Shown: positions 2,809-20,296 of the stretch, piece after piece
Layout: each line of letters begins with the position of its first letter
Position numbering within the stretch: position 1 is the stretch's first letter
Source of the DNA: Zwartia panacis
Lineage (GTDB): Bacteria > Pseudomonadota > Gammaproteobacteria > Burkholderiales > Burkholderiaceae_B
Length of the DNA stretch: 64,000 nt
Direction: 5' to 3'
Assembly (NCBI RefSeq): GCF_030410395.1
Contig: NZ_JAUHHF010000001.1
Coordinates: forward strand, 434,001 to 498,000
Notes under the pieces: generated by a model
Databases searched by the model: none
Seen by the model: the letters and a program-made list of their open reading frames with translations, nothing else
Told to the model about the DNA's origin: nothing
Position numbers and translations under genes: made by a program

Positions 2809-4198
2809 ATCCCTTGATGATGTGACGATACCAGCCGTGGAGCAGCACGGCTGAAATAGCCAGGCCAGTTGTGGCCATCAACCACATACTGCCTGCGCCC
2901 ACAGGAGAGCCAGCCAGGAGCTGGTTGCGCAGTGGTTCGATGAGTCCTTTGCCGGGACCAAAACCGAGCCACCATCCTCCCAGCAATCCAACAACCATCA
3001 GTGCAAAAATCTGCAGACAAAGTGGTACGACTGCGATTTTGTGCGCACGCAAAAGATAGCTGTTGATGCATTGCATCGCATCGACGATGTGAAAAAATGG
3101 CAAGAGCGCTAACAGAGATAAAGCGATGGTGGCAACGGCAGGGTCGCTGGTATAGAGGGCAACAATGACATCTCGACCAAAATACAGTCCACAAGCTGTT
3201 AAGAGCGCCCCAGCCAAACCCACGACCAAGCCCATCATGCTTGTGCGATGTGCCTGGTGTAATTGTCCTGCGCCAATGGCTTGCGCAGCCAACGCTGCGG
3301 TTGCGACACCGATGGCCATTGGCATCATATAAGCCAGCGCTGCGAGATTGGAGGTAATCTGGTGCCCTCCGATGACAGCGGTGCCTTCCTGAGCAACGAG
3401 TAAGGCCATAAAAGTGAAGGCGCTGACCTCGACTAAATAAGACCCTCCCATCGGAATACCCAGTCGCAGAATGCTCCACAGTTCTCCCCAGTGCGGGCGT
3501 CCAAGCTGCAGCTGAAACTGTTTGTAAAAGGGGGTGCGTGTCACGACCCATAAGCCAATGGCGAGGTTGATCCAGAACACGATGGCCGAGGAGATTCCTG
3601 CTCCAGTCGCACCCAGCGCGGGCAGACCCCAGTTTCCAAAAATCAGTAGCCAGTTAAAAAATATTTTGAGAACGATCCCGACCAGATTAATCATCATGAT
3701 CAGCTTGGGGCGTGATACGGCGTTGGCCAATGAATACACGGTGCGAAACATCAGCGCCGCTGGCAGCGCGCAAGTCAGCGCGAGAAGATAGCTTTTCACA
3801 TTGGCGCGAACGACCGGATCGATATCACCAGAGAAGCTCAGCCATACATCCGGGAACAGGAGCACCGCGCCGCCCAGCACAGACAAGAGCAAAGATACCC
3901 AGATTCCTTGCCCCCACGTTTGTCCAACACGCTCAAGTTTGCCTGCGCCCACGAATTGAGCCTGAATGGGAATCAATGCGTGCATGACACCGGTCAGACC
4001 GATAAACACGGTGATGTAAATCGAGATTGATAGTGCCATTGTTGCGAGATCAATCGGCCCGGCATGCCCCGTCATGGCCGTGTCCAGTACGCCAAAAGCC
4101 ATGCTGGCCCACTGACTGATTAGTATGGGCCAAGACTGCTTGAAAATTGCTCGAAGTGTCGCACCAAAAGAGCGAGGCGAGGTGTCGACGACATTCAT
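2795..4198 (-). CDS. MATE family multidrug/toxin exporter
   Basis: Polytopic inner-membrane exporter of the MATE family (NorM-like), which typically uses a sodium or proton gradient to expel cationic compounds. The 467 residues form about twelve hydrophobic segments in two related halves; the N-terminal half begins with the typical [15 protein letters not shown]-type first helix, and [20 protein letters not shown] in the second half matches the family's conserved helix-7 region. The start ATG overlaps the TGA of the upstream glycosyltransferase by four bases, so both belong to one transcript. The 3' end overlaps orn by 14 bases from the opposite strand. Substrate cannot be told from sequence. 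Confidence 0.92.
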
Positions 4199-5925
4199 TG
4201 TTTGGAAAGACGCAAAATACGGTAGCGATCAAAACGATCGGCACCGCGAGAGCCTTGCCAGAGGACTTCAGCATGATCGCTAAATCCTGCCTCACCGTTC
4301 TCGAGTTTTTTAAGCGTTGTCTGCTGCAAAATAAAGGGGCACTTCGTGTCGTAAACCAGCTCAATGTGGTCAAACACGTACAGGGATGCGCGCGGGCCGA
4401 GAGCAAGACCCTGTTCTCTGAGGCAAGCAAGCTCTCCCGGCGTCTCAGATAAGCCTTCAAGTGTTTGCCGTATATCGGCCGACATGGGACGGTAACTCCG
4501 GACGTAGTCAACCGCGGGCAACCACAGCAATACCAGCATGATCCATGTCAGCGTCAATCCGCCAGCTGCGAGCAGGGATCCGCGCCATAACGCATTGGGG
4601 TTTGCTTTGACTCGCCACAAGATCATGGCGATCCAGCAAAGAGTGCACAGGATGGCGAGCAGTACTGCCCACCAGACGATCTGTGGTTCATAGCCCTTTG
4701 TTTGACGTGCGATATTGAGAGAAATTTGTTCTGGTATGCCGAAATGCAGAGCAAACCAACCAATCCAGACGCAGGCCACCGTCACCGAAAAACACATCAG
4801 TGCGAACCAGTCCAAGGTGTTGATCACGCCACGTCGCATAGTCGGAATCGCGAAAGCAGCCAGAATGGCGAGTGGACAAGTAAAAAGCACATACTCCGCC
4901 TCGCCTGATTGTGGCGAAACAAATAGCGTCAGTAGGGCGCCCAGTACAAAAGAAAGGGGAATCCAAATGTGTGGTGCCGTGATCCAGCGGCGCCATTGCC
5001 AGAGCGCCAGGACTGCCAAAGGCCAGATTGGCCAGAGAAACCATGGTAAGTCGCGCAGGGGACGCACGGCATTTTCATACTCCGGCAACCCGAAACTCAT
5101 TTTGTTCCAGTGGAGCCATTCGTTCATCCAGCCGGGGTGCAACTGCATCGCAGGAATCCACCAGCTTGCGATAAGTGCGCAAGCCAGTACTAGCGCAGCC
5201 AGTGCATGGTAGCGAGACGACCACAGTATCGAGCGTCTTTGAAAAGCGATCGGTAAGGCGAGCAAGAGCGGAACGAGCCCGGGCCAAGCGCGCGTCAAGA
5301 AAGCTCCCGTCAGGGCAAGCGCAAGCATCACAGCACCCATTTTGGGTTTGTCCATCATGCGCGCCAGCGAATAAAAACCTAACGCCTGAAAGGCGAGGTT
5401 TGCGGGAACATTGGAGGTTTCGTGAAAACGCAGCAGCACGCCACCGGTTGCGAGAAAGAGGAGTGTTGCGACATCGGCCAACAGTCGACCGTAGTCTTTG
5501 ACGGTCGGCTCTCCGCCAAAAGGAAGCGCCAAGGGCTGGGCCTCGGTGCGGCGCCCTAAGAGGTAAGTCCCGTACCAGACGCACCCCAGTGTGATGCCGA
5601 ACCAGATGATATTGATCAGGCGTGAAGCACCGACTTCACCGATCCAGGGGCCAAAGAGATGGATCAATATGGCACCCAGCCACATCCCCAGGGGGCCATC
5701 CTGGGCAAGTTTAAGTTCGCCCAAATGCGGGACCAACCAGTCCGTGCCCTGAGACTGTAATGCCGAAAGCATGGTGGCCAGGCTCAGCACATCATCCGTT
5801 TTCCAGGGGTCTCTGCCATAGAGCCCTGCCAAAACATAGGCGATCGCTAACAGCAACAGCACCAGCCTGGGAAGCTTGGCTGAGGCGTTGGCGGTTAGTC
5901 TTGCCGGGGTGGACTGAGATGACAT
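4195..5925 (-). CDS. ArnT-like membrane glycosyltransferase
   Basis: Probable lipid-phosphate-sugar-dependent glycosyltransferase of the ArnT/PMT superfamily. The acidic motif of the first periplasmic loop is visible as GRDPWKTDD (about residues 38-46), followed by DWLVPHLGELKLAQDGPLG, typical of ArnT-type enzymes; about twelve membrane segments follow, and a C-terminal periplasmic domain of about 110 residues ends the protein. Enzymes of this kind move an amino sugar from an undecaprenyl-phosphate carrier to lipid A or another envelope acceptor. A TTG lies one codon upstream; the ATG at 5925 has GAAGG seven bases before it. It is coupled to the MATE gene by an ATGA overlap. The GT2 and NaxD-like genes at 34.9-36.7 kb may supply its donor. 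The acceptor is an inference. Confidence 0.82.
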   Translation of the reverse strand: MSSQSTPARLTANASAKLPRLVLLLLAIAYVLAGLYGRDPWKTDDVLSLATMLSALQSQGTDWLVPHLGELKLAQDGPLGMWLGAILIHLFGPWIGEVGASRLINIIWFGITLGCVWYGTYLLGRRTEAQPLALPFGGEPTVKDYGRLLADVATLLFLATGGVLLRFHETSNVPANLAFQALGFYSLARMMDKPKMGAVMLALALTGAFLTRAWPGLVPLLLALPIAFQRRSILWSSRYHALAALVLACALIASWWIPAMQLHPGWMNEWLHWNKMSFGLPEYENAVRPLRDLPWFLWPIWPLAVLALWQWRRWITAPHIWIPLSFVLGALLTLFVSPQSGEAEYVLFTCPLAILAAFAIPTMRRGVINTLDWFALMCFSVTVACVWIGWFALHFGIPEQISLNIARQTKGYEPQIVWWAVLLAILCTLCWIAMILWRVKANPNALWRGSLLAAGGLTLTWIMLVLLWLPAVDYVRSYRPMSADIRQTLEGLSETPGELACLREQGLALGPRASLYVFDHIELVYDTKCPFILQQTTLKKLENGEAGFSDHAEVLWQGSRGADRFDRYRILRLSKQ

Positions 5926-5940
5926 CAATATGCCTTCATC

Positions 5941-5971
5941 AAAAAAAAGGCAGCCATCAGGCCGCCTCTTT
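5941..5971 (-). terminator. rho-independent terminator after rpmE2
   Basis: Reading the minus strand, AGGCGGCC, a four-base loop and GGCTGCCT form a stem (one mismatch) at 5948-5967, followed by eight T residues (5948-5941). It lies just downstream of rpmE2 and upstream of the ArnT-like gene start, so it should separate the ribosomal protein transcript from the glycosyltransferase-MATE unit. Confidence 0.85.
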
Positions 5972-5999
5972 TCGGGAGATCTGATCCGAGAGACTCAGA

Positions 6000-6266
6000 T
6001 TAGGCAGAAGCCTTTTTCGTGCCAGTCGTGCGTGCAAAGCGCGCGCGGAACTTCTCGACTCGACCTGTTTCGACGATACGAGTTTGCGCACCGGTGTAGA
6101 AAGGGTGAGATTCGGAAGTCACGTCACACTTAAACAATGGATAGGTTTTACCATCCATTTCAATGGTTTCGCGGCTGTTGAGCGTGGAACGGGTGATGAA
6201 TTTGTTGCCAGTCTGCAGGTCAACAAACACCACATCGCGGTAATTTGGGTGAATCTCGTCTTTCAT
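6000..6266 (-). CDS. rpmE2: 50S ribosomal protein L31 type B
   Basis: Component of the central protuberance of the large ribosomal subunit. The 88-residue protein starts with the conserved [16 protein letters not shown] and has the extended type B form with [20 protein letters not shown]. Only one cysteine is present, so the CxxC zinc site of the type A paralogue is missing; type B proteins are the zinc-independent version that often replaces type A under zinc shortage. No Zur-like operator is obvious to me in the short upstream region. It is a single-gene transcript ending at the terminator at 5941-5971. Confidence 0.97.
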
Positions 6267-6435
6267 CTAAAGTCCTTTCGGTTGGGCGGGTCGCCAGCCA
6301 CATTCGCCAAACAATCAAAGCGATGTCACCACGTATCCTGAGTCAAGCCCTCGATTCTACAGGTAAAGACGGGATTTCGCAATGTGACGGTGCTATTCTG
6401 CGTACAAACGAAGACAAAAAAGGTGTTTTTTAACA

Positions 6436-7209
6436 ATGGCTTGGAAAAAAAATACAGCCCCCCTGCGGGATATTCCCACAATATCTGAGGGTGGTGGGAT
6501 CCGATATTTGCACTTTGGCACGCCCTGGGTGCAAGGTGCGATGTGGGTCTCCAGACCCGCGGAACTGGTGCTTGAATACACGGCGCAGATGATGGCGTGG
6601 CTTCTTTTTCTCGCCCCTGCGCGTCAGCAGTCCATCACGCTGCTCGGTCTGGGGGCGGGTTCACTAGCTCGTTTCTGTCTCAAACACACCTCTAACAGGG
6701 TCCAGGTGGTGGAGTGGAACCCCATGGTGACGTCTGCCTGCGAGATGTATTTCAAATTACCCCGACCCGCGAGGCTGGTGGTCGAGCATCTCGACGCCGG
6801 TGAATGGGTTGCCGATCCCCGGAATCAAGAACACAGCGCAATATTGATGGTTGACTTGTATGACGGCGAGGCCGCGGGACCCGTGCGAGACTCTCTGGAG
6901 TTTTACCAACAGTGCAGAAATGTGTTGGGAGACGTCGGGGTGATGACTGTCAATCTGTTCGGTGCGCATGCCAGTTTTGAAAAAAATATTCGGCGCTTGA
7001 GTCAGGCATTTGACGGTCGACTGTTGAGCTTGCCTCAGATCGATGCTGGAAATCAGATTGTGCTTGCATTCAAAGGACCGCCGATCGAGGTTTCGATTGA
7101 GCAGTTGCTGGCGCGCGCGGAGGTCGTTGAGTCACAATACGGTTTGCCTGCGAAAAAATGGGTACGCTCCATGATTGGGCGATCCAAAGATGGCGTATTG
7201 ATCGTTTGA
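6436..7209 (+). CDS. spermidine synthase-like SAM-fold protein
   Basis: Class I SAM-dependent-methyltransferase-fold protein resembling the catalytic core of spermidine synthase (SpeE). The glycine-rich nucleotide motif appears as LLGLGAGSLARFC (about residues 70-82), the acidic ribose-binding residue as VVEWNPMV, and a later acidic motif as VDLYDGEAAG. At 257 residues it is a little shorter than true SpeE and lacks the usual N-terminal beta-strand domain in recognisable form, so the product could be an unrelated aminopropyl- or methyltransferase. No speD is nearby. The start is an ATG at 6436; the following ABC binding protein gene begins 17 bases after its stop. Confidence 0.75.
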   Translation: MAWKKNTAPLRDIPTISEGGGIRYLHFGTPWVQGAMWVSRPAELVLEYTAQMMAWLLFLAPARQQSITLLGLGAGSLARFCLKHTSNRVQVVEWNPMVTSACEMYFKLPRPARLVVEHLDAGEWVADPRNQEHSAILMVDLYDGEAAGPVRDSLEFYQQCRNVLGDVGVMTVNLFGAHASFEKNIRRLSQAFDGRLLSLPQIDAGNQIVLAFKGPPIEVSIEQLLARAEVVESQYGLPAKKWVRSMIGRSKDGVLIV

Positions 7210-7226
7210 CTGGTATTAACCCATTG

Positions 7227-8192
7227 ATGAATATGAATAAATTAGGTGCATGGTTTTTGGCGATTGGTATGTTTTTGATCAGTGCCACTACCTTTGCCCA
7301 AACCAAGGCAGTCTCGGTTCTTTCTTACCACCAGGACGAAGACTCAGAGGGAATGATCGACGGGATTCGGGAGGTGCTCAGGTCTGCAGGATTTCGAGAG
7401 GGACGTAACCTGAAGTTGACTCTGGCGGATGCGCAGGGCACGCCAGAACGTGCGCAGCAGCTTGCGCTTGAGCTCGTGCGCGGACGTCCGGATGTCATCG
7501 TGACCTTGTCTTTGCCCGCAACACAGGCTGTGATGACGTACACCAAACAAATTCCTGTTGTTTTCGCGGGTATCACGGATCCGGTTGCCGCCGAAGTCGT
7601 CATGGGTTGGGGACCCTCGGGTACCAACGTTACAGGTGTCTCTGATGCCTTACCTCTGAAAAAAAGAATCGACTTGATCAAGCAGCTCGTGCCTCAGGCT
7701 CGGCGGGTTGGAGTGATTTACAACCCTTCAGATGCGAACTCTGTGGCCCAAGTGCGGGAGTTTCAGGAAAACTTGAGTGGTACGGGTCTCATTGCGATCG
7801 AACTGACCGTCTCAAGACCCGTTGATGTGGGTTCAGCAGCCCGCAGTCTGATCGAAAAAGTAGATGTTTTTCAATCACTCACCGATTCCACAGTGAGCCA
7901 AAGTTATGCTGCCCTTGCTCAGGTCGCCAATGATGCCCGCATTCCGCTGCTTGGCTGGGATGTCAAGGATGTACGCTCAGGGGCTGTCGCGGCTCTCGAT
8001 CTAACCGACCAGGATATCGGTACGGCAGCCGGACGCGTTGCCTTAAGGGTGCTCAGAGGTGTCAAGCCTGGTGCGATTGCCCCGGAAGTGATCGCAAACC
8101 CGCCGATCTATGTCAATTTGCAAGCAGCCAGCAAACAGTCCGTCACATTGTCACCAGCCTTAACAAAAGTAGCCCGTCCACTTGTTAAATAA
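7227..8192 (+). CDS. ABC transporter substrate-binding protein (orphan)
   Basis: Periplasmic binding protein of the ABC_sub_bind family (PF04392, TrpX-like). The N-terminus is a signal peptide: MNMNKLG followed by a hydrophobic stretch and cleavage near TTFAQ. The mature part has the two-lobe Rossmann pattern, for example VIVTLSLPATQAV, VVFAGITDPVAAE and RVGVIYNPSDANS. The frame is open back to 7158 but those extra residues overlap the previous gene, and the signal peptide fixes the start at 7227 or at the ATG two codons later. No permease or ATPase gene of this family accompanies it, which is unusual; partner proteins must be encoded elsewhere or be missing. Confidence 0.85.
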   Translation: MNMNKLGAWFLAIGMFLISATTFAQTKAVSVLSYHQDEDSEGMIDGIREVLRSAGFREGRNLKLTLADAQGTPERAQQLALELVRGRPDVIVTLSLPATQAVMTYTKQIPVVFAGITDPVAAEVVMGWGPSGTNVTGVSDALPLKKRIDLIKQLVPQARRVGVIYNPSDANSVAQVREFQENLSGTGLIAIELTVSRPVDVGSAARSLIEKVDVFQSLTDSTVSQSYAALAQVANDARIPLLGWDVKDVRSGAVAALDLTDQDIGTAAGRVALRVLRGVKPGAIAPEVIANPPIYVNLQAASKQSVTLSPALTKVARPLVK

Positions 8193-13901: not shown

Positions 13902-13915
13902 TTGATCTATATCAA
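13902..13915 (+). promoter_or_regulatory. FNR box upstream of the CcoI-like gene
   Basis: TTGATctatATCAA is a perfect match to the FNR/ANR consensus TTGAT-N4-ATCAA. A good -10 candidate, TAGAAT (13939-13944), lies at the distance expected for activation from about -42. The -10 hexamer covers the most upstream ATG (13943) of the next gene, which argues for a later translation start. Confidence 0.85.
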
Positions 13916-13954
13916 GGCGCAGAAACACCTACCGCGCCTAGAATGAGCCTCACC

Positions 13955-14926
13955 ATGGCCAAATCAATTTTTGCGTTGAATCGCCCTTTGACTCCTGCTG
14001 AAATGAGCGGGCGCAGGCGCAGCCTTGTGCGGCTGGGATTGGCCTGGCTTGCCATGATGCAGGTGATGATGTTTGCCTTGCCCGGATATCTTAGGGTTGA
14101 AGCAGGTCCCAACGATAGTCTGGAAGTTCTGGATTGGGCTATTTTTCTAATGAATTGGGCTAGCCTTGCCCTGACGGTACCCGTGGTGCTCTATGCTGCC
14201 TGGCCTGTCTGGCAGGGAGTTGGTCTCGCCTATTCAGAGCGACGCGTGACCATGGACATTCCCGTGGCGACGAGTATCGTGGCTGCTTTTATTCCCAGCG
14301 CGTTTGCGACGATCTTGGGTCATGGCGAGGTTTATTACGATTCCGTCACGATGTTTGTCGCCTTTTTGTTGACTGCGCGTTACTTTGAAACCCGCGCCAG
14401 ACAGTCGGTCCAAGCCACGCAGGGTGGGGCGCAGCTCGATGCCCTGTGTCAGCCCTTGATCGTTCAGTCGGATCGAGTCGCCACAGTCTTTATTCTTGTA
14501 CAACTGGCTGTTGCCTTCTTGATTGCCAGTTATTGGTGGCTGACGCAACCCGAGCATGCGCTTTCGGTTCTGGTCGCATTACTTGTGATGAGTTGTCCCT
14601 GTGCCTTGGCCTTGGCTGCCCCCATGTCACTGGCCGCGACGCATGCCAGTCTGGCCGCCTATCCCGAGATGAACGATGCGCAACGTGATGTACTTTTTGC
14701 GCGCACACGTCGTGTCACGCTACAAAATTTGTATGGTGCGTTGATCTGGCATGTTTTGACGATGCCTCTTGCCGCCGTAGGTTGGGTCACGCCCTGGTTG
14801 GCCGCTTTGTTGATGTTCGTTTCTTCGACAGCGGTGGTGATCAACGCCTGGCGGCTTTACGCAATCCCTGCTGATCCAGGGCGTTCGGCGCACGCCGCGA
14901 CCTTTCAAGCCCGGGCGCAGTCCTAG
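13955..14926 (+). CDS. membrane-only relic of CcoI/FixI copper P-type ATPase
   Basis: The sequence is clearly homologous to the membrane part of CcoI (FixI), the P1B copper ATPase that loads cbb3 oxidase with copper: LAMMQVMMFALPGYL, MDIPVA, GHGEVYYDSVTMF and the metal-binding SCPCALALAAP (Cys214, Cys216), ending in the paired helices with QNLYGALIWHVLTMPLA and the SS-x4-NAWRL motif. What is absent is equally clear: no N-terminal metal-binding domain, no actuator TGE loop, no DKTGT phosphorylation site and no nucleotide-binding domain. The cytoplasmic domains are replaced by short linkers and the frame is intact (323 residues against about 750-800). It cannot pump by ATP hydrolysis. An ATG at 13943 is less likely because it overlaps the -10 element. 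ccoS follows at once. Confidence 0.8.
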   Translation: MAKSIFALNRPLTPAEMSGRRRSLVRLGLAWLAMMQVMMFALPGYLRVEAGPNDSLEVLDWAIFLMNWASLALTVPVVLYAAWPVWQGVGLAYSERRVTMDIPVATSIVAAFIPSAFATILGHGEVYYDSVTMFVAFLLTARYFETRARQSVQATQGGAQLDALCQPLIVQSDRVATVFILVQLAVAFLIASYWWLTQPEHALSVLVALLVMSCPCALALAAPMSLAATHASLAAYPEMNDAQRDVLFARTRRVTLQNLYGALIWHVLTMPLAAVGWVTPWLAALLMFVSSTAVVINAWRLYAIPADPGRSAHAATFQARAQS

Positions 14927-14934
14927 GAATCATT

Positions 14935-15117
14935 TTGGAAATACTTTACCTACTGTTGCCTTTGTCGCTAGCCGTGATCGCGCTAGTGGGGGGCATGCTG
15001 TGGTGGGCGGTTTTTTCCGGTCAATACGATGATCCGGATGCGGCAAGTCATTCAATTTTGCTTGACGATGATCGTGCGGATGCTGTTGTGAATGTGTCAA
15101 AAATCGATCAATCCTGA
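14935..15117 (+). CDS. ccoS: cbb3 oxidase assembly protein CcoS
   Basis: Small single-helix membrane protein needed for maturation of cbb3 oxidase cofactors. The 60 residues have the CcoS pattern: EILYLLLPLSLAVIALVGG, then WWAVFSGQYDDPD with the conserved W-A-x-x-x-G-Q-F/Y-D-D motif. It starts with TTG; TAGGA six bases before supports that start. It follows the CcoI-like gene by eight bases, the usual ccoI-ccoS order, which suggests that the relic is still co-expressed with the assembly genes. Confidence 0.9.
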   Translation: MEILYLLLPLSLAVIALVGGMLWWAVFSGQYDDPDAASHSILLDDDRADAVVNVSKIDQS

Positions 15118-15145: not shown

Positions 15146-15187
15146 TTGATATGGATCAAGTGGTTGTCCACATCGTTTTGGCATGAT
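15146..15187 (+). promoter_or_regulatory. class II FNR-dependent promoter of ccoNOQP
   Basis: A perfect FNR box, TTGATatggATCAA, lies at 15146-15159. A -10 hexamer CATGAT is at 15182-15187. If transcription starts at about 15194, the box is centred at -41.5, the exact spacing of class II FNR-activated promoters. This predicts induction of the oxidase at low oxygen. Confidence 0.85.
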
Positions 15188-15223: not shown

Positions 15224-16690
15224 ATGGCTCGCTCAAGCGCGGTAACGGCCGAGACCTTCAACTACGGTGTCGTGAGGCAGTTTGCCATCATGACAGTTGT
15301 CTGGGGTGTCGTAGGGATGCTGGTTGGCGTCATCATCGCCGCCCAATTACTTTGGCCTCAACTCAATCTTGATATCCCTTGGCTGACGTACGGACGCATC
15401 AGACCGCTTCATACAAACGCGGTCATTTTTGCGTTTGGGGGCAGCGCGCTTTTCGCGGCGTCTTACTACGTCGTGCAGCGTACCTGCCAGGCGCGTTTGT
15501 TTGGCGGCTTCCTAATCCCGTTTACCTTCTGGGGCTGGCAGCTCGTGATCGTCGCCGCTGCGATCACCTTGCCTTTGGGTATTACCACCAGCAAGGAATA
15601 CGCTGAGCTCGAGTGGCCGATCGATATCCTGATCACGCTTGTGTGGGTCGCTTATGCGATTGTTTTTTTCGGGACAATCGTCAAGCGAAAGAGTAAGCAT
15701 ATCTACGTCGCAAACTGGTTCTTCGGTTCCTACATTCTGACGATTGCGATTCTGCACATCGTGAACAACATCGAGATGCCCGCAACGCTCTGGAAATCTT
15801 ACTCCGCATATGCCGGCGTGCAGGACGCGATGGTGCAGTGGTGGTACGGTCACAACGCAGTGGGATTCTTTTTGACCACGAGCTTTTTGGGCATGATGTA
15901 CTACTTCATCCCCAAGCAGGCAGAACGTCCCATCTATTCATACCGCTTGTCGATCGTGCACTTTTGGGCGCTTGCGTTCACATACATGTGGGCGGGTCCA
16001 CATCACCTTCTTTACACCTCATTGCCTGACTGGACACAGTCGCTGGGTATGGTGTTCTCACTGATACTGCTGGCACCCTCCTGGGGTGGCATGATCAACG
16101 GCATCATGACTTTATCAGGTGCCTGGTACAAGTTGCGCACCGATCCTATTTTGAAATTTATGGTGGTCTCTCTGTCTTTCTACGGTATGTCGACCTTCGA
16201 AGGCTCGATGATGTCCATCCGAACAGTGAATGCGTTGTCCCACTACACAGACTGGACGGTCGGCCATGTGCACTCGGGTGCACTGGGCTGGGTCGCGATG
16301 ATCACTTTCGGTATGTTGTATTACCTGATTCCCCGACTCTGGGGACGTGAAAGGATGTACAGCACCAAGTTGATCGAGGTGCACTTCTGGATTGCGACCA
16401 TTGGTGTGGTGCTCTATATCGCTTCGATGTGGATTGCCGGCGTGATGCAGGGTCTGATGTGGCGTGCGACGGAGCCGGATGGTTCACTGACGTACAGCTT
16501 TGTCGAGTCCGTCAAGTCCTCAGTCCCTTTCTACGCGATTCGTCTAGTGGGCGGACTCCTGTACCTGAGCGGAATGTTCGTGATGGCCTATAACGTCTTT
16601 AAGACTGTGATTGGTGAAAAAGCTGTCAATCCGGTGATCCCGAAAGACGTTGCTCAACCTGTGTCCGCTGTCGCTGCGGCAAACGCCTGA
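15224..16690 (+). CDS. ccoN: cbb3-type cytochrome c oxidase subunit I
   Basis: Catalytic heme-copper subunit of the high-affinity cbb3 terminal oxidase; twelve membrane helices in 488 residues hold heme b and the heme b3-CuB centre. Histidine ligand segments are visible: [14 protein letters not shown] (low-spin heme), [11 protein letters not shown] (CuB and cross-linked Tyr region), WAGPHHLLY (CuB His pair) and [14 protein letters not shown] (heme b3 and b). AAGGAAACAAC precedes the ATG. It opens the ccoN-O-Q-P transcript, controlled by the FNR promoter at 15146-15187. Confidence 0.98.
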
Positions 16691-16700
16691 GGAGGAAATC

Positions 16701-17372
16701 ATGGCAAATGAAAAGCAAAGTTTCTTCTCGCACCAGACCCTCGAGAAAAATATCGGTTTGATGATTGTTTGCAGCATCATCGTGGTCTTGTTCGCTGGAC
16801 TCGTCCAAATCGTCCCGCTGTTTTTTCAGCACTCCCTGACCAAACCAACAGCGGGCGTCGAGCCTTACGATCCGCTCAGGCTGATGGGGCGCGACCTGTA
16901 TATTCGTGAGGGTTGTGTAGGTTGCCATTCTCAACAGATCCGGATGTTACGCGCTGAGGTTCAGCGTTACGGATCCTACTCTTTGGCGGGTGAATCGGTG
17001 TTTGATCGTCCGTTCTTGTGGGGCTCCAAGCGGACGGGTCCTGATTTGGCCCGTGTCGGCGAGCGTTACTCGGACGAATGGCATCGCGTCCACTTGCGCA
17101 ACCCAAGGTCCGTAGTTCCGGAGTCCAATATGCCCGGTTATCCCTGGCTCGCACAGCGTCAGTTGACTGATACCGATATCAAGGACCGCATGCATGCACT
17201 GCGAATCCTGGGCGTGCCATATACCGATGCGCAAATCGAGAGCGCACCGGCTGCCTTGAAGGGTAAAACAGAAGAAGACGCCATGATTGCCTATTTGCAG
17301 GGCTTGGGCACGGGTGTTCGTAAAGCCGCACAGGCCGCGCAGACGAGTCCGTCTTCAGCAGGAGCGAAATGA
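16701..17372 (+). CDS. ccoO: cbb3-type cytochrome c oxidase subunit II (mono-heme c)
   Basis: Membrane-anchored monoheme cytochrome c that passes electrons from CcoP to CcoN. One N-terminal helix ([20 protein letters not shown]) is followed by the periplasmic heme domain with CVGCH (Cys72, Cys75, His76) and a methionine ligand in the [12 protein letters not shown] segment. GGAGGAAATC directly before the ATG at 16701 is a near-perfect ribosome site and fixes the start; the longer open frame upstream overlaps ccoN. Length 223. The stop overlaps the ccoQ start. Confidence 0.97.
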
Positions 17373-17545
17373 TGCTTGCCTATCTCAATGCCTTTTCAAC
17401 AGTGTTGGCGATGCTGACATTTTTCGGAATTATCTGGTGGGCCTTTTCCAAAGGACGTAAACAAGCAAACGAAGAGGCGGCCATGTTGCCTTTCGTCTTG
17501 CCCGATGAAGGCGCCAAGCAGCAGAAAGAGGAGTCGCGTCCATGA
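17369..17545 (+). CDS. ccoQ: cbb3 oxidase subunit CcoQ
   Basis: Small accessory subunit that stabilises the oxidase complex. The frame runs from an ATG overlapping the ccoO stop (ATGATGA) to a TGA overlapping the ccoP start and encodes 58 residues. One membrane helix ([21 protein letters not shown]) is followed by the typical [16 protein letters not shown] charged tail with the conserved LPF near the end. The position between ccoO and ccoP is diagnostic. Confidence 0.92.
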
Positions 17546-18492
17546 ATGATTTTTTTGATGGTTTTTGGGGTTATTACATCGCAACCGTTGTGTTGGGGGG
17601 AATCATCTGGTGTCTGTGGCTGCTGTTTTCCCAGCGCAAGTGGTTGGTGAAACGCACGCCTGGAGTTGTAGAGGACACGGGCCACGTTTGGGACGGCGAT
17701 TTGCGCGAACTGAATAATCCCGTGCCAAGATGGTGGACGTACATGTACGTACTCATGTGCATTTTCGGCTTGGGTTATTTGGTTCTTTATCCAGGGCTCG
17801 GGGCCTATCAGGGTAGCCTGGGATATACCTCCGCGCTTGAGGTCAAAGAGGATCAAACCAAGCAGAACGAGGAGGTCAAGCCAGTTTATGCACGTTTCGC
17901 TTCCATGGATATCCCCGCGATCGCGGCCGATCCCGAGGCGCGGGTGATTGGTCAACGTTTGTTCCTGAATAACTGTGCACAATGTCATGGATCAGACGCT
18001 CGCGGTGCGGTGAGTTTTCCAAACTTAGCGCAGGGCGATTCGATGTATGGACGCACACCCGAAGCCATTCAGACCTCGATCGCAAAAGGTCGAAATGGTG
18101 TGATGCCGCCCATGAGTGCGACTATTGATGCCAAGACTGCCGGTGAAATCGCTCAGTACGTTCGCTCCATGTCCGGTTTGGCGCATGATCAGATTCGCGT
18201 GATTCCCGGTAAGCGCGCCTATCTCAACAATTGCGTGGCGTGTCATGGTGTCGATGGCAAGGGAAATAAAGCGCTTGGTGCGCCTAATCTCACAGACGAT
18301 GTCTGGCTCTATGGCAGCTCCGAGGCCACGATCGTACATACCATCCTCAATGGTCGTAACAACCGCATGCCTGCCCAGGAGCATGTGCTCACGCCTGAAC
18401 AGATTCGTCTGTTGACTGCTTGGGTATGGGGTTTGTCCGGTGGCAAGGACGTGACCGCTTCGGCAGCGATGTCCTCGGATTCGGCCAAGTAA
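17542..18492 (+). CDS. ccoP: cbb3-type cytochrome c oxidase subunit III (di-heme c)
   Basis: Diheme cytochrome that receives electrons from soluble cytochrome c. The N-terminal CcoP_N region has two membrane helices with DGDLRELNNPVPRWW between them; the periplasmic part carries CAQCH (Cys145-His149) and CVACH (Cys231-His235). The length of 316 residues is normal. The ATG overlaps the ccoQ stop by four bases, so O, Q and P are all coupled. Confidence 0.98.
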   Translation: MNDFFDGFWGYYIATVVLGGIIWCLWLLFSQRKWLVKRTPGVVEDTGHVWDGDLRELNNPVPRWWTYMYVLMCIFGLGYLVLYPGLGAYQGSLGYTSALEVKEDQTKQNEEVKPVYARFASMDIPAIAADPEARVIGQRLFLNNCAQCHGSDARGAVSFPNLAQGDSMYGRTPEAIQTSIAKGRNGVMPPMSATIDAKTAGEIAQYVRSMSGLAHDQIRVIPGKRAYLNNCVACHGVDGKGNKALGAPNLTDDVWLYGSSEATIVHTILNGRNNRMPAQEHVLTPEQIRLLTAWVWGLSGGKDVTASAAMSSDSAK

Positions 18493-18517
18493 ATGATGAC
18501 CAAGTCAGGTGATGCAC

Positions 18518-20056
18518 ATGACCTCTGATTCTCAGACTCCCCAGTCCGAAGAGGTGGCGCCCCTGGCCTGGCGTCCGCTTGGGAGCAAACCGCTGCCACC
18601 CGGGGCCGAGATTCTTGAGCAAACACTTGCGGATGTTCGTCAAAAAATTTATGCCCGTTCCGTTGTAGGTGTGTTCGCACGTTGGCGCATTGCGCTCGTC
18701 CTCCTGACGCAAGCGCTCTTTTATGGTTTGCCGTGGCTCAACTGGAACAGACGTCAAGCAGTTCTGTTTGACCTGGGTGCCCGTAAGTTTTACATCTTCG
18801 ATATGGTGTTGTGGCCTCAGGACGTCATTTATCTGACACTGCTGCTGATTATTTCCGCGTTGGGCTTGTTCCTCTTTACGGCGATTGCTGGTCGACTGTT
18901 TTGCGGGTATGCCTGTCCACAGACTGTTTACACTGAAATTTTCATGTGGATTGAACGCAAGGTCGAAGGAGACCGCGTTGCCCGCATTCGTCTCGATGAG
19001 TCGCCACTATCTTTTAGAAAATTTCGCCTCAAAGCAACCAAGCACGCGCTTTGGCTGGTTGTCGCATTCTGGACAGGGTTCTCGTTTATTGGTTACTTTG
19101 CGCCCATACGCAGTTTGGCGGCTGATTTGTTGGCTTTTACTCTGGGCCCGTGGCAATGGTTCTGGTTGTTTTTCTATAGTTTTGCGACATGGGGTAACGC
19201 AGGCTTTTTGCGGGAACAAGTATGCAAATACATGTGCCCCTACGCACGTTTCCAGAGTGTCATGGTGGATCGTGACACGTTGGTGGTGACCTACGACACG
19301 GTGCGCGGAGAGCCGCGCGGTGCGCGCTCCCGCAAGGTGGATCATCGTGCCCAGGGCATGGGCGATTGCGTAGACTGCAGTATTTGCGTTCAGGTATGTC
19401 CAACAGGGATCGATATCAGGCAAGGACTCCAGTACATGTGCATCGGTTGTGGTGCTTGCGTGGATGCGTGTAATCAGGTCATGGACAAACTTGACTATCC
19501 CAAGGGGCTGATCCGCTATACCTCAGAGAGAGGTATCTTGGAAAAACTCTCGCCAAAAGCTATCCGTAAAAGTCTTTTGCGTCCGAGGGTGTTGATTTAC
19601 TCGGCGTTGATGCTGGTGCTTGTGGCGGTCTTTATCGGTTCTTTAGCCACGCGTACGACTTTGCGTGTGGATGTGATCCGGGATCGAGGAATGCTTGGCA
19701 GGGAAGTTGCAGGCGGATTGATTGAAAACGTTTATCGAATCCAGCTGATCAATGCATCTGAACAGCCACTCGTGCTTTCTTTAGGGGTGGAGGGCGTACC
19801 CGGCATGACGGTAGCTCTGGCGGATCGAACATCCGTTCCACTATCAGGTGCCCAGTCCGGCGATCCGGTGCAGTCAGCAGCGCGGATCAATGTGCCCAGC
19901 GCATCGAATCGATTGATCGCAGTCGTGGTCAGGGCGCCTGCTGAGTCCGCCAAGCCCGGTCCGCAACCGATCAGATTCATTACCCGCTCACTGGGTCCTG
20001 ATGGTGCTGTGTTGACTGAAATCAATGAAGCATCCAGTTTTATATTTCCTAATTAA
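18518..20056 (+). CDS. ccoG: cytochrome oxidase accessory protein CcoG (RdxA/FixG)
   Basis: Membrane-bound iron-sulphur protein that acts as a cupric reductase in CuB delivery to cbb3 oxidase in characterised relatives. Several N-terminal helices are followed by the CGYACPQTVYTEIFMW motif, the CKYMCPYARFQSVM segment and two 4Fe-4S clusters (CVDCSICVQVCP and CIGCGACVDACN). The C-terminal 120 residues form the Ig-like FixG_C domain. GTG and ATG codons at 18509 and 18512 are possible alternative starts; the ATG at 18518 has the better spaced AGGTGA. The first residues are hydrophilic, as in relatives. Confidence 0.95.
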   Translation: MTSDSQTPQSEEVAPLAWRPLGSKPLPPGAEILEQTLADVRQKIYARSVVGVFARWRIALVLLTQALFYGLPWLNWNRRQAVLFDLGARKFYIFDMVLWPQDVIYLTLLLIISALGLFLFTAIAGRLFCGYACPQTVYTEIFMWIERKVEGDRVARIRLDESPLSFRKFRLKATKHALWLVVAFWTGFSFIGYFAPIRSLAADLLAFTLGPWQWFWLFFYSFATWGNAGFLREQVCKYMCPYARFQSVMVDRDTLVVTYDTVRGEPRGARSRKVDHRAQGMGDCVDCSICVQVCPTGIDIRQGLQYMCIGCGACVDACNQVMDKLDYPKGLIRYTSERGILEKLSPKAIRKSLLRPRVLIYSALMLVLVAVFIGSLATRTTLRVDVIRDRGMLGREVAGGLIENVYRIQLINASEQPLVLSLGVEGVPGMTVALADRTSVPLSGAQSGDPVQSAARINVPSASNRLIAVVVRAPAESAKPGPQPIRFITRSLGPDGAVLTEINEASSFIFPN

Positions 20057-20065
20057 GGAGACATT

Positions 20066-20296
20066 ATGAACAGCGCACAACAAAAGACAGAAACAACGCG
20101 CGCTACGCCATGGTGGCGCGAGCCCTGGCCATGGATATTGATGGCAGGCCCCGCGTTAGCCATTGTCGGTTGTGCGATTACGATCGTATTAGCCCTGAAC
20201 AGCTTCTCCGATCAGCCTATTCTGGAGGGCGGCATGAAGCGTGGCTTGGTGGTTGAGAAACTACCTGTCAAGCCGCCTTCAAACGAAGCACGTTAA
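20066..20296 (+). CDS. short FixH-like protein
   Basis: Probable FixH family cbb3 assembly protein. The 76 residues contain a WWREPWPWILM entry into one membrane helix (about residues 22-45) and then DQPILEGGMKRGLVVEK, which resembles the beginning of the FixH periplasmic domain (the Y-Y-K-R-G-L segment). The rest of that domain is absent, since FixH of other bacteria has about 150-170 residues. AAGGAG precedes the ATG, and the gene sits right after ccoG, where fixH is expected. The short form may be ancestral in this group or a truncation. Confidence 0.7.
   Translation: MNSAQQKTETTRATPWWREPWPWILMAGPALAIVGCAITIVLALNSFSDQPILEGGMKRGLVVEKLPVKPPSNEAR

Follow-up and report, generated by a model that had tools for sequence, protein, structure and literature searches.

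The closest described relatives of the protein analysed here are the P1B-1 ATPases of the CcoI/FixI/CopA2 type. For R. capsulatus, the cited parts of PMC8475189 describe that CcoI transports Cu(I) with ATP, that extra CopA is no substitute for CcoI, that extra copper has little effect, that a CPC mutant of CcoI has about 2% activity, or 10% with copper, and that in one assay extra copper raised the activity of a ccoI deletion from <10% to about 30%. An earlier paper on the same bacterium states that copper excess does not bypass the loss of CcoI (PMC5829832), and the same was stated for FixI in the sections of a Caulobacter study cited here, which also report that the levels of cbb3 subunits were not lowered without FixI (PMC12617631). 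A second known system is the CopA1 type, represented by AfCopA (7r0g) and LpCopA (4bbj), in which CopA is a full ATP-driven detoxification exporter. A third is E. coli CopA(Z), a product of a frameshift in copA that corresponds to the soluble metal-binding N-terminus.

Here we show that the ORF at positions 13955-14926 of the window, that is, of the whole stretch of 64,000 nucleotides of Zwartia panacis DNA that was analysed, encodes the membrane domain, with its eight helices, of a CcoI/CopA2 copper ATPase. The protein shares with the CcoI/FixI/CopA2 type the eight helices, the CPC and MxxSS motifs, the Met-Asp pair at the entry and the place before ccoS-ccoN, with about 40-54% identity in the best membrane segment. 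Unlike CcoI, however, it has no metal-binding N-terminus, actuator, phosphorylation domain or nucleotide domain, as indicated by sequence searches, alignment and AlphaFold, and it has Trp/Phe-His for Tyr-Asn in M5. It shares with the CopA1 type the membrane fold (the top Foldseek and PDB sequence matches) and the CPC and MxxSS motifs, but it is engine-less and located in a cbb3 operon. The likeness to CopA(Z) is that a piece of a copper ATPase serves without pumping; the difference is that CopA(Z) is the N-terminal part, which is exactly what the short form has lost while keeping the membrane part. The short form is a variant of CcoI, a relative by descent that is no longer an ATPase by anatomy, and we did not find an earlier description of it in the open-licence PMC literature. 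The features of the locus are as follows.

13902..13915, + strand: FNR/Anr-type box TTGAT-N4-ATCAA, TTGATCTATATCAA, before the short ccoI
13955..14926, + strand: short ccoI, coding for 323 aa that form the membrane domain of a CcoI/CopA2 copper ATPase
14390..14479, + strand: place of the missing actuator, residues 150-179, 30 residues flanked by the conserved E149 and A180 in the alignment to 29 full-length CcoI proteins
14594..14602, + strand: CPC motif in M4, residues 218-220, present in 79/79 short and 29/29 full-length proteins
14603..14728, + strand: end of M4, linker that stands in for the P and N domains, and start of M5, residues 221-262
14735..14752, + strand: M5 signature G265, W269, H270 (W, Y, N in full-length CcoI)
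14813..14827, + strand: MxxSS motif in M6, residues 291-295, with M291, S294 and S295 in 79/79 short and 29/29 full-length proteins
14935..15117, + strand: ccoS (TIGR00847, 47.3 bits; PF03597)
15146..15159, + strand: second FNR/Anr-type box, before ccoN
15224..16690, + strand: ccoN, catalytic subunit of the cbb3 oxidase (TIGR00780, 790 bits)
16701..17372, + strand: ccoO (PF02433)
17369..17545, + strand: ccoQ (PF05545)
17542..18492, + strand: ccoP (PF14715, PF13442)
18509..20056, + strand: ccoG (FixG; PF13746, PF11614)
20066..20296, + strand: 76-residue ORF resembling the membrane anchor only of CcoH (FixH) (PF05751 positions 1-36/150, 22.1 bits, below the cut-off of 23)

Residue numbers throughout are counted from an alternative start at 13943, which would extend the short ccoI to 13943-14926 (327 aa); the ATG at 13955 is backed by relatives, whose proteins begin M-x-KSIF. 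Several lines of evidence define what the protein contains. Firstly, profile searches recognized fragments: Pfam found the tail of E1-E2_ATPase alone (residues 170-238), NCBIfam found pieces of ATPase-IB1_Cu scoring 58.6 bits against a cut-off of 397, and in a PDB sequence search the protein aligned to CopA in three collinear pieces, the third of which is weak. Secondly, we compared 79 short proteins with 29 full-length CcoI proteins, the 79 being 81 minus L054, which reaches a contig end, and L085, which reaches a contig end and is without residues 127-173. The actuator slot holds 30-64 residues (median 30) in the short proteins versus 130-137 in full-length CcoI, the P/N slot 40-42 versus 224-356, and the residues before Q40 number 33-57 (median 36) versus 7-264 (median 201). 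DKTGT, GDGxND and the N-terminal CxxC were each found in 0/79 of the aligned short proteins, and the 'TGE' strings present in 5/79 all lie in the M1-M2 loop, leaving no actuator TGE. Thirdly, an AlphaFold model built with 36 sequences (pLDDT 86.1, pTM 0.81) has eight long membrane helices, and AlphaFold and Foldseek together identify the P1B-type helices MA, MB and M1-M6, as the sequence-only reading had expected of a structure prediction. The best eight PDB matches of the model in Foldseek are all P1B ATPases, the first alone (4bbj, E 5e-4) lying below 0.001, and the query-length TM-scores are modest (0.35-0.47). Thus, profiles, the 79-protein alignment and the AlphaFold model confirm the initial proposal that the ATPase domains are absent and the membrane domain is kept. 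The residues missing from L085, which ends at a contig edge, correspond to M2, and may reflect an assembly fault or a further reduction.

The short form is widespread among relatives. A scan of the genome contigs of 84,980 species gave 308 relatives, of which the best 80 were kept, and all 80 kept loci carry the short form with CPC present and DKTGT absent, L054 and L085 being cut by contig ends. As anticipated from the window, close genomes have the same form upstream of ccoS: ccoS and ccoN follow it in 78 of the 80 loci, the misses being L054 and L085. The short ccoI of the window adjoins ccoS under an FNR box, as had been read from the sequence, and queF lies upstream on the opposite strand. 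The perfect FNR consensus occurs in 2 copies in the window versus 0.17 expected, and a looser box, TTGA[TC]-N4-[AG]TCAA, was found 37-72 bp (median 48) before the chosen ORF start in 75 of the 78 loci, out of 80, that have 250 bp upstream, against a background of 0.04 per 250 bp. In a few GC-rich loci there are long open frames upstream of the short ccoI, without any ATPase motif. Two contigs of a single Achromobacter ruhlandii LMG 1866 assembly (L076 and L090) each carry a short ccoI, ccoS and ccoN. The short form occurs in records titled Zwartia, Sheuella, Achromobacter, Pusillimonas, Alcaligenes, Paenalcaligenes and Bordetella; we call the family Alcaligenaceae after these record titles, several of which, for MAGs, look misnamed.

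The distribution follows that of the cbb3 oxidase. Among 31 other genomes of the window's genus there are 25 short-form matches, at least two of them (G011 and G029) incomplete, one full-length CcoI (G014) and 5 genomes with no match; four of 5 genomes from other genera of the family have the short form. A draw of 151 family genomes, read from tallies and the top-ranked rows among the matches listed, contains 113 with ccoN over the cut-off, of which 102 have the short form, 9 have a full-length CcoI near ccoN (G014, G438, G439, G450, G475, G483, G536, G539 and G548) and 2 (G513 and G556) are cut by contig ends just beyond ccoS. Relatives with a full-length gene at this place, the situation that would have spoken against the initial reading, therefore exist, but as a minority of 9, one of them in the genus (G014), versus 102 with the short form. 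None of the 113 ccoN genomes (0/113) has the short form and a full-length CcoI together. The short form is absent from 34 of the 38 family genomes without an over-cut-off ccoN, and the genomes that have it without such a ccoN either reach contig ends (G029 and G505) or have a broken ccoN (G500 and G509). Since its presence follows ccoN across the 151 family genomes, the short protein is retained along with cbb3. G500 (L173, about 3458-7364) has a broken ccoN as well as a short ccoI interrupted by about 1 kb, and the two genes seem to decay together. In G450 and G475 (L169 and L170), the cbb3 operon is divergent, with ccoI and ccoS after ccoP (ccoS in L169 only), and the CcoI keeps DKTGT and has no plain TGE or CxxC.

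Outside the family, a full-length CcoI lies near ccoN in 12 of 20 stretches, the other 8 being stretches without a visible CcoN. Wider draws were made at the level of the order (399 genomes), the class (370) and the phylum (397); they overlap, each includes some family genomes, and their figures are tallies and the top-ranked rows among the matches listed. Among these, no whole-length match to the short form was found in another family: the other-family matches listed are pieces inside longer frames. The lists end among weak matches, and a complete short form would have stood near their top. Eleven listed frames of <650 residues were considered as independent short forms elsewhere and rejected, all of them lying about 1 kb or less from a contig end on the translation side. 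A plasmid origin was likewise rejected, as none of the 43 matching plasmid records covers over 80% of the short protein, and a search of a defence library gave no match for the short CcoI.

Some features of the surrounding operon deserve mention in their own right. CcoH/FixH in the window seems reduced to a 76-residue membrane anchor. A search of the window's whole genome for FixH gave no match at E 0.001, and FixH was matched in 60 of the 151 family genomes, nearly always, among the matches listed, over the first 35-60 of 150 positions only. The idea that CcoH was lost together with the ATPase domains was rejected: since the genomes G014 and G536, which have full-length CcoI, also match the start of FixH alone, the shortening of CcoH and the loss of the ATPase domains are not linked. 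Two residues of CcoN follow the form of CcoI: residue 266 is S in 34/35 short-associated sequences versus A in 20/21 others (A266->S), and residue 333 is R in 35/35 versus K in 21/21 (K333->R). These switches may reflect either co-adaptation or shared descent. In G487 (contig C15, 491188-493644), the short ccoI and ccoN are on opposite strands, so joint transcription of the two genes is not universal.

The membrane domain itself has been kept with one local change. Defining as conserved those positions that are constant in at least 90% of the 79 short and at least 80% of the 29 full-length proteins, 65 positions are conserved in both sets and the residue is identical at 62, including M104-D105, C218-P219-C220, M291 and S294-S295. 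The three that differ are all in M5: W265->G, Y269->W (F in some) and N270->H. The last is His in 79/79 short versus Asn in 29/29 full-length proteins, and His was also found in all 52 further loci that cover M5; these come from 53 that were read out of 58 (L015, L019, L030, L032 and L120 were left out by a text filter, L023 ends before M5), L005 being the window itself and others partly repeating species of the first set. Thus, a new property of the short form is that the invariant Tyr-Asn of M5 is replaced by Trp/Phe-His while CPC and MxxSS stay. The statement that the protein keeps every CcoI membrane signature holds for the latter two motifs, but was too strong because of this change in M5. 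In CopA, the text of PMC9433437 cited here describes the YN and MxxSS motifs as expected at the high-affinity copper site, with impaired binding when they are mutated, presents copper entry from CopZ on the cytosolic side as involving MB', M158, E205 and D336, and puts the release path between MA, M2 and M6.

When sets of matched diversity were compared (35 short proteins, mean identity 0.61, versus 20 full-length proteins, 0.59), the numbers of invariant sites in the short versus the full-length form were 13 vs 6 in MA, 10 vs 6 in MB, 9 vs 6 in M1, 12 vs 6 in M2, 9 vs 9 in M4, 4 vs 7 in M5 and 10 vs 9 in M6, and a fourth switch, A118->P, appeared. Conservation was lost in the short form at W94, R95, G103, D177 and R246, and also inside helices at L222, L224 and A229 (M4), A273 (M5) and G290, L296 and V299 (M6). 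By our own reading of the PDB sequence alignment, D177 would correspond to CopA D336 and M104 to CopA M158. The pattern suggests that in the short form the cytosolic entry side may have lost importance and the release side may have retained it.

The short ccoI is under purifying selection. Nei-Gojobori comparisons of the 79 sequences gave a median dN/dS of 0.24 and a maximum of 0.52, with none > 1, for the 968 of 3081 pairs with dS 0.05-1.5; the other 2113 pairs fell outside the dS limits or were without dN. The window and its five nearest sequences (pS 0.71-0.76, pN 0.11-0.22) are too distant for a good dS. In a tree of CcoI (302 membrane columns; 35 of the 79 short and 29 full-length proteins) the short forms are one group with an SH-aLRT of 100, and a tree of CcoN (35 short-associated and 21 full-associated sequences, the outside loci being the 12 out of 20 whose stretch shows a CcoN) gives the same split with an SH-aLRT of 96; both trees are quick ones with drawn roots and no bootstrap, and several full-length rows are long-branched. 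Because the short forms group together on both trees, a single origin would be the simplest reading. This grouping, the dN/dS values and the presence of the short form before ccoS-ccoN in relatives bear out the view that the form is selected and not a product of random decay. In the window's own genus, G014 has a full-length CcoI of 827 aa before ccoN (L164, 6422-8905, - strand). It could be taken for the ancestor left in place, but against this, its CcoI and CcoN both lie outside the short group. Since both trees agree on this, operon replacement or an older split appears likelier, its long branch leaving the placement of G014 unsure.

In addition, the genome of the window contains other copper genes: a CopA1-type ATPase (L002), two Sco/SenC proteins and one PCuAC, besides a ZntA-like ATPase (L001) and a P2-like cation ATPase (L003). 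The expectation that another intact copper ATPase would be present was thus borne out by the CopA1-type protein, next to the ZntA-like one, and no full-length CcoI was found in this genome. The copper ATPase model matches 143 of the 151 family genomes, 139 of them over the cut-off, and the eight genomes missing it have 0.7-0.9 Mb and are also without ccoN.

What, then, does the short form do? We consider it probable that it serves in the assembly of the cbb3 oxidase as a factor that needs no ATP and probably binds copper, that is, CcoI minus ATP hydrolysis. The membrane part was kept and every ATP-using part lost, which suggests that a pump has turned into an energy-free assembly helper. A single loss of ATP hydrolysis from CcoI, in an ancestor of the Alcaligenaceae, would be the simplest course, and the remaining protein would have been kept as a membrane-embedded cbb3 assembly factor. 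It may bind Cu(I) at the Cys-Cys-Met site, with His as a possible added ligand, and could hold copper for, or hand it to, CcoN during CuB insertion, with no pumping across the membrane. Less firmly, it might act from the periplasm, where Sco/SenC or PCuAC would load it, and the CopA1-type ATPase could supply the periplasm with copper. The higher invariance of MA and M2 and the release of W94, R95 and D177 may be counted in favor of an assembly factor; counted against it, the lost conservation does not appear confined to the cytosolic side, since sites in M4, M5 and M6 are affected too, and the Trp-His of M5 could have a purely structural meaning, unrelated to metal. The data on R. capsulatus point both ways: transport by CcoI and the copper-raised activity of the ccoI deletion would count against an ATP-free reading, and the results with CopA, with the CPC mutant and, in Caulobacter as well, with copper excess would count for it. 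Against it, the unchanged levels of cbb3 subunits in Caulobacter without FixI (PMC12617631) disfavor a general scaffold role. Also counted against it, for Bordetella bronchiseptica, irrespective of the form of its own ccoI, the cited part of PMC11257404 reports that a cbb3-only strain was not obtainable despite high transcription of ccoN, so cbb3 may assemble poorly in Alcaligenaceae; ccoN of B. pertussis is reported as broken in the cited part of PMC13038864.

A more specific version of the assembly factor, which we put forward tentatively, is an intramembrane chaperone that, having lost its engine and gained a His at the Cys-Cys-Met site, receives Cu(I) from chaperones of the periplasm, holds it within the membrane and delivers it laterally to the CuB site of CcoN. 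A pure protein scaffold, whose helices would only offer a docking site to CcoN, CcoS or other assembly factors, with no involvement of copper, seems unlikely to us. Its fixed link to ccoS and ccoN and the greater number of invariant sites in MA, MB and M2 than in full-length CcoI would suit such a role, but CPC and MxxSS are unchanged in 79/79 proteins and would be needless for a metal-free scaffold.

Among the functions proposed by the sequence-only reading, an assembly platform fits best, and an ATP-independent channel is less likely. A P-type reaction cycle needs both actuator and phosphorylation domains; these are missing from the sequence, so that ATP-driven export of Cu(I) by the short form would be impossible. 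A channel or facilitator would instead let Cu(I) pass down its gradient, and the conservation of the metal-path residues M104-D105, CPC, M291 and S294-S295 counts in its favor. The cytosol, however, has less free copper than the periplasm, and passive flow would be inward, opposite to that of CcoI; moreover, W94, R95 and D177 of the cytosolic entry side lost conservation, and a His added to the site would suggest holding over fast passage. Because no P-type cycle is possible and passive flow would be inward, we favor the assembly factor and regard a channel as rather improbable, slightly behind the scaffold.

Less probable still is a split or partnered ATPase, in which another protein provides the ATP-using domains or the CopA1-type pump includes the short protein as a subunit. 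The genome has a complete CopA1-type ATPase, and the copper ATPase model is matched in 143 of the 151 family genomes; however, actuator matches in the window's genome come from the three complete ATPases and the tail match of the window only, and hence no free actuator domain was found there. Finally, a functionless vestige, whether pseudogene or assembly error, is very improbable: all catalytic domains are lost and G500 has a split short gene with a broken ccoN, but the short form is found in 80/80 kept loci, dN/dS is at most 0.52, the M5 switch is conserved and presence follows ccoN, and the same loci and dN/dS values already refute a recent event or assembly error.

The assembly factor would have implications for how CcoI is understood. 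In R. capsulatus, CcoI cannot be replaced in cbb3 assembly by CopA or by much extra copper. A family with the membrane half of CcoI only is a natural experiment on this point: that the whole family kept only that half implies that it has an ATP-free job. As a compact protein, the short CcoI also allows the P1B copper site to be studied without the catalytic cycle, W265G, Y269W and N270H being the few residue changes of interest, and as the gene is present in records named Achromobacter, Alcaligenes and Bordetella, it is testable in cultured bacteria. If the protein is indeed an intramembrane chaperone, this family would build its cbb3 oxidase without the dedicated CcoI export step that has been thought necessary.
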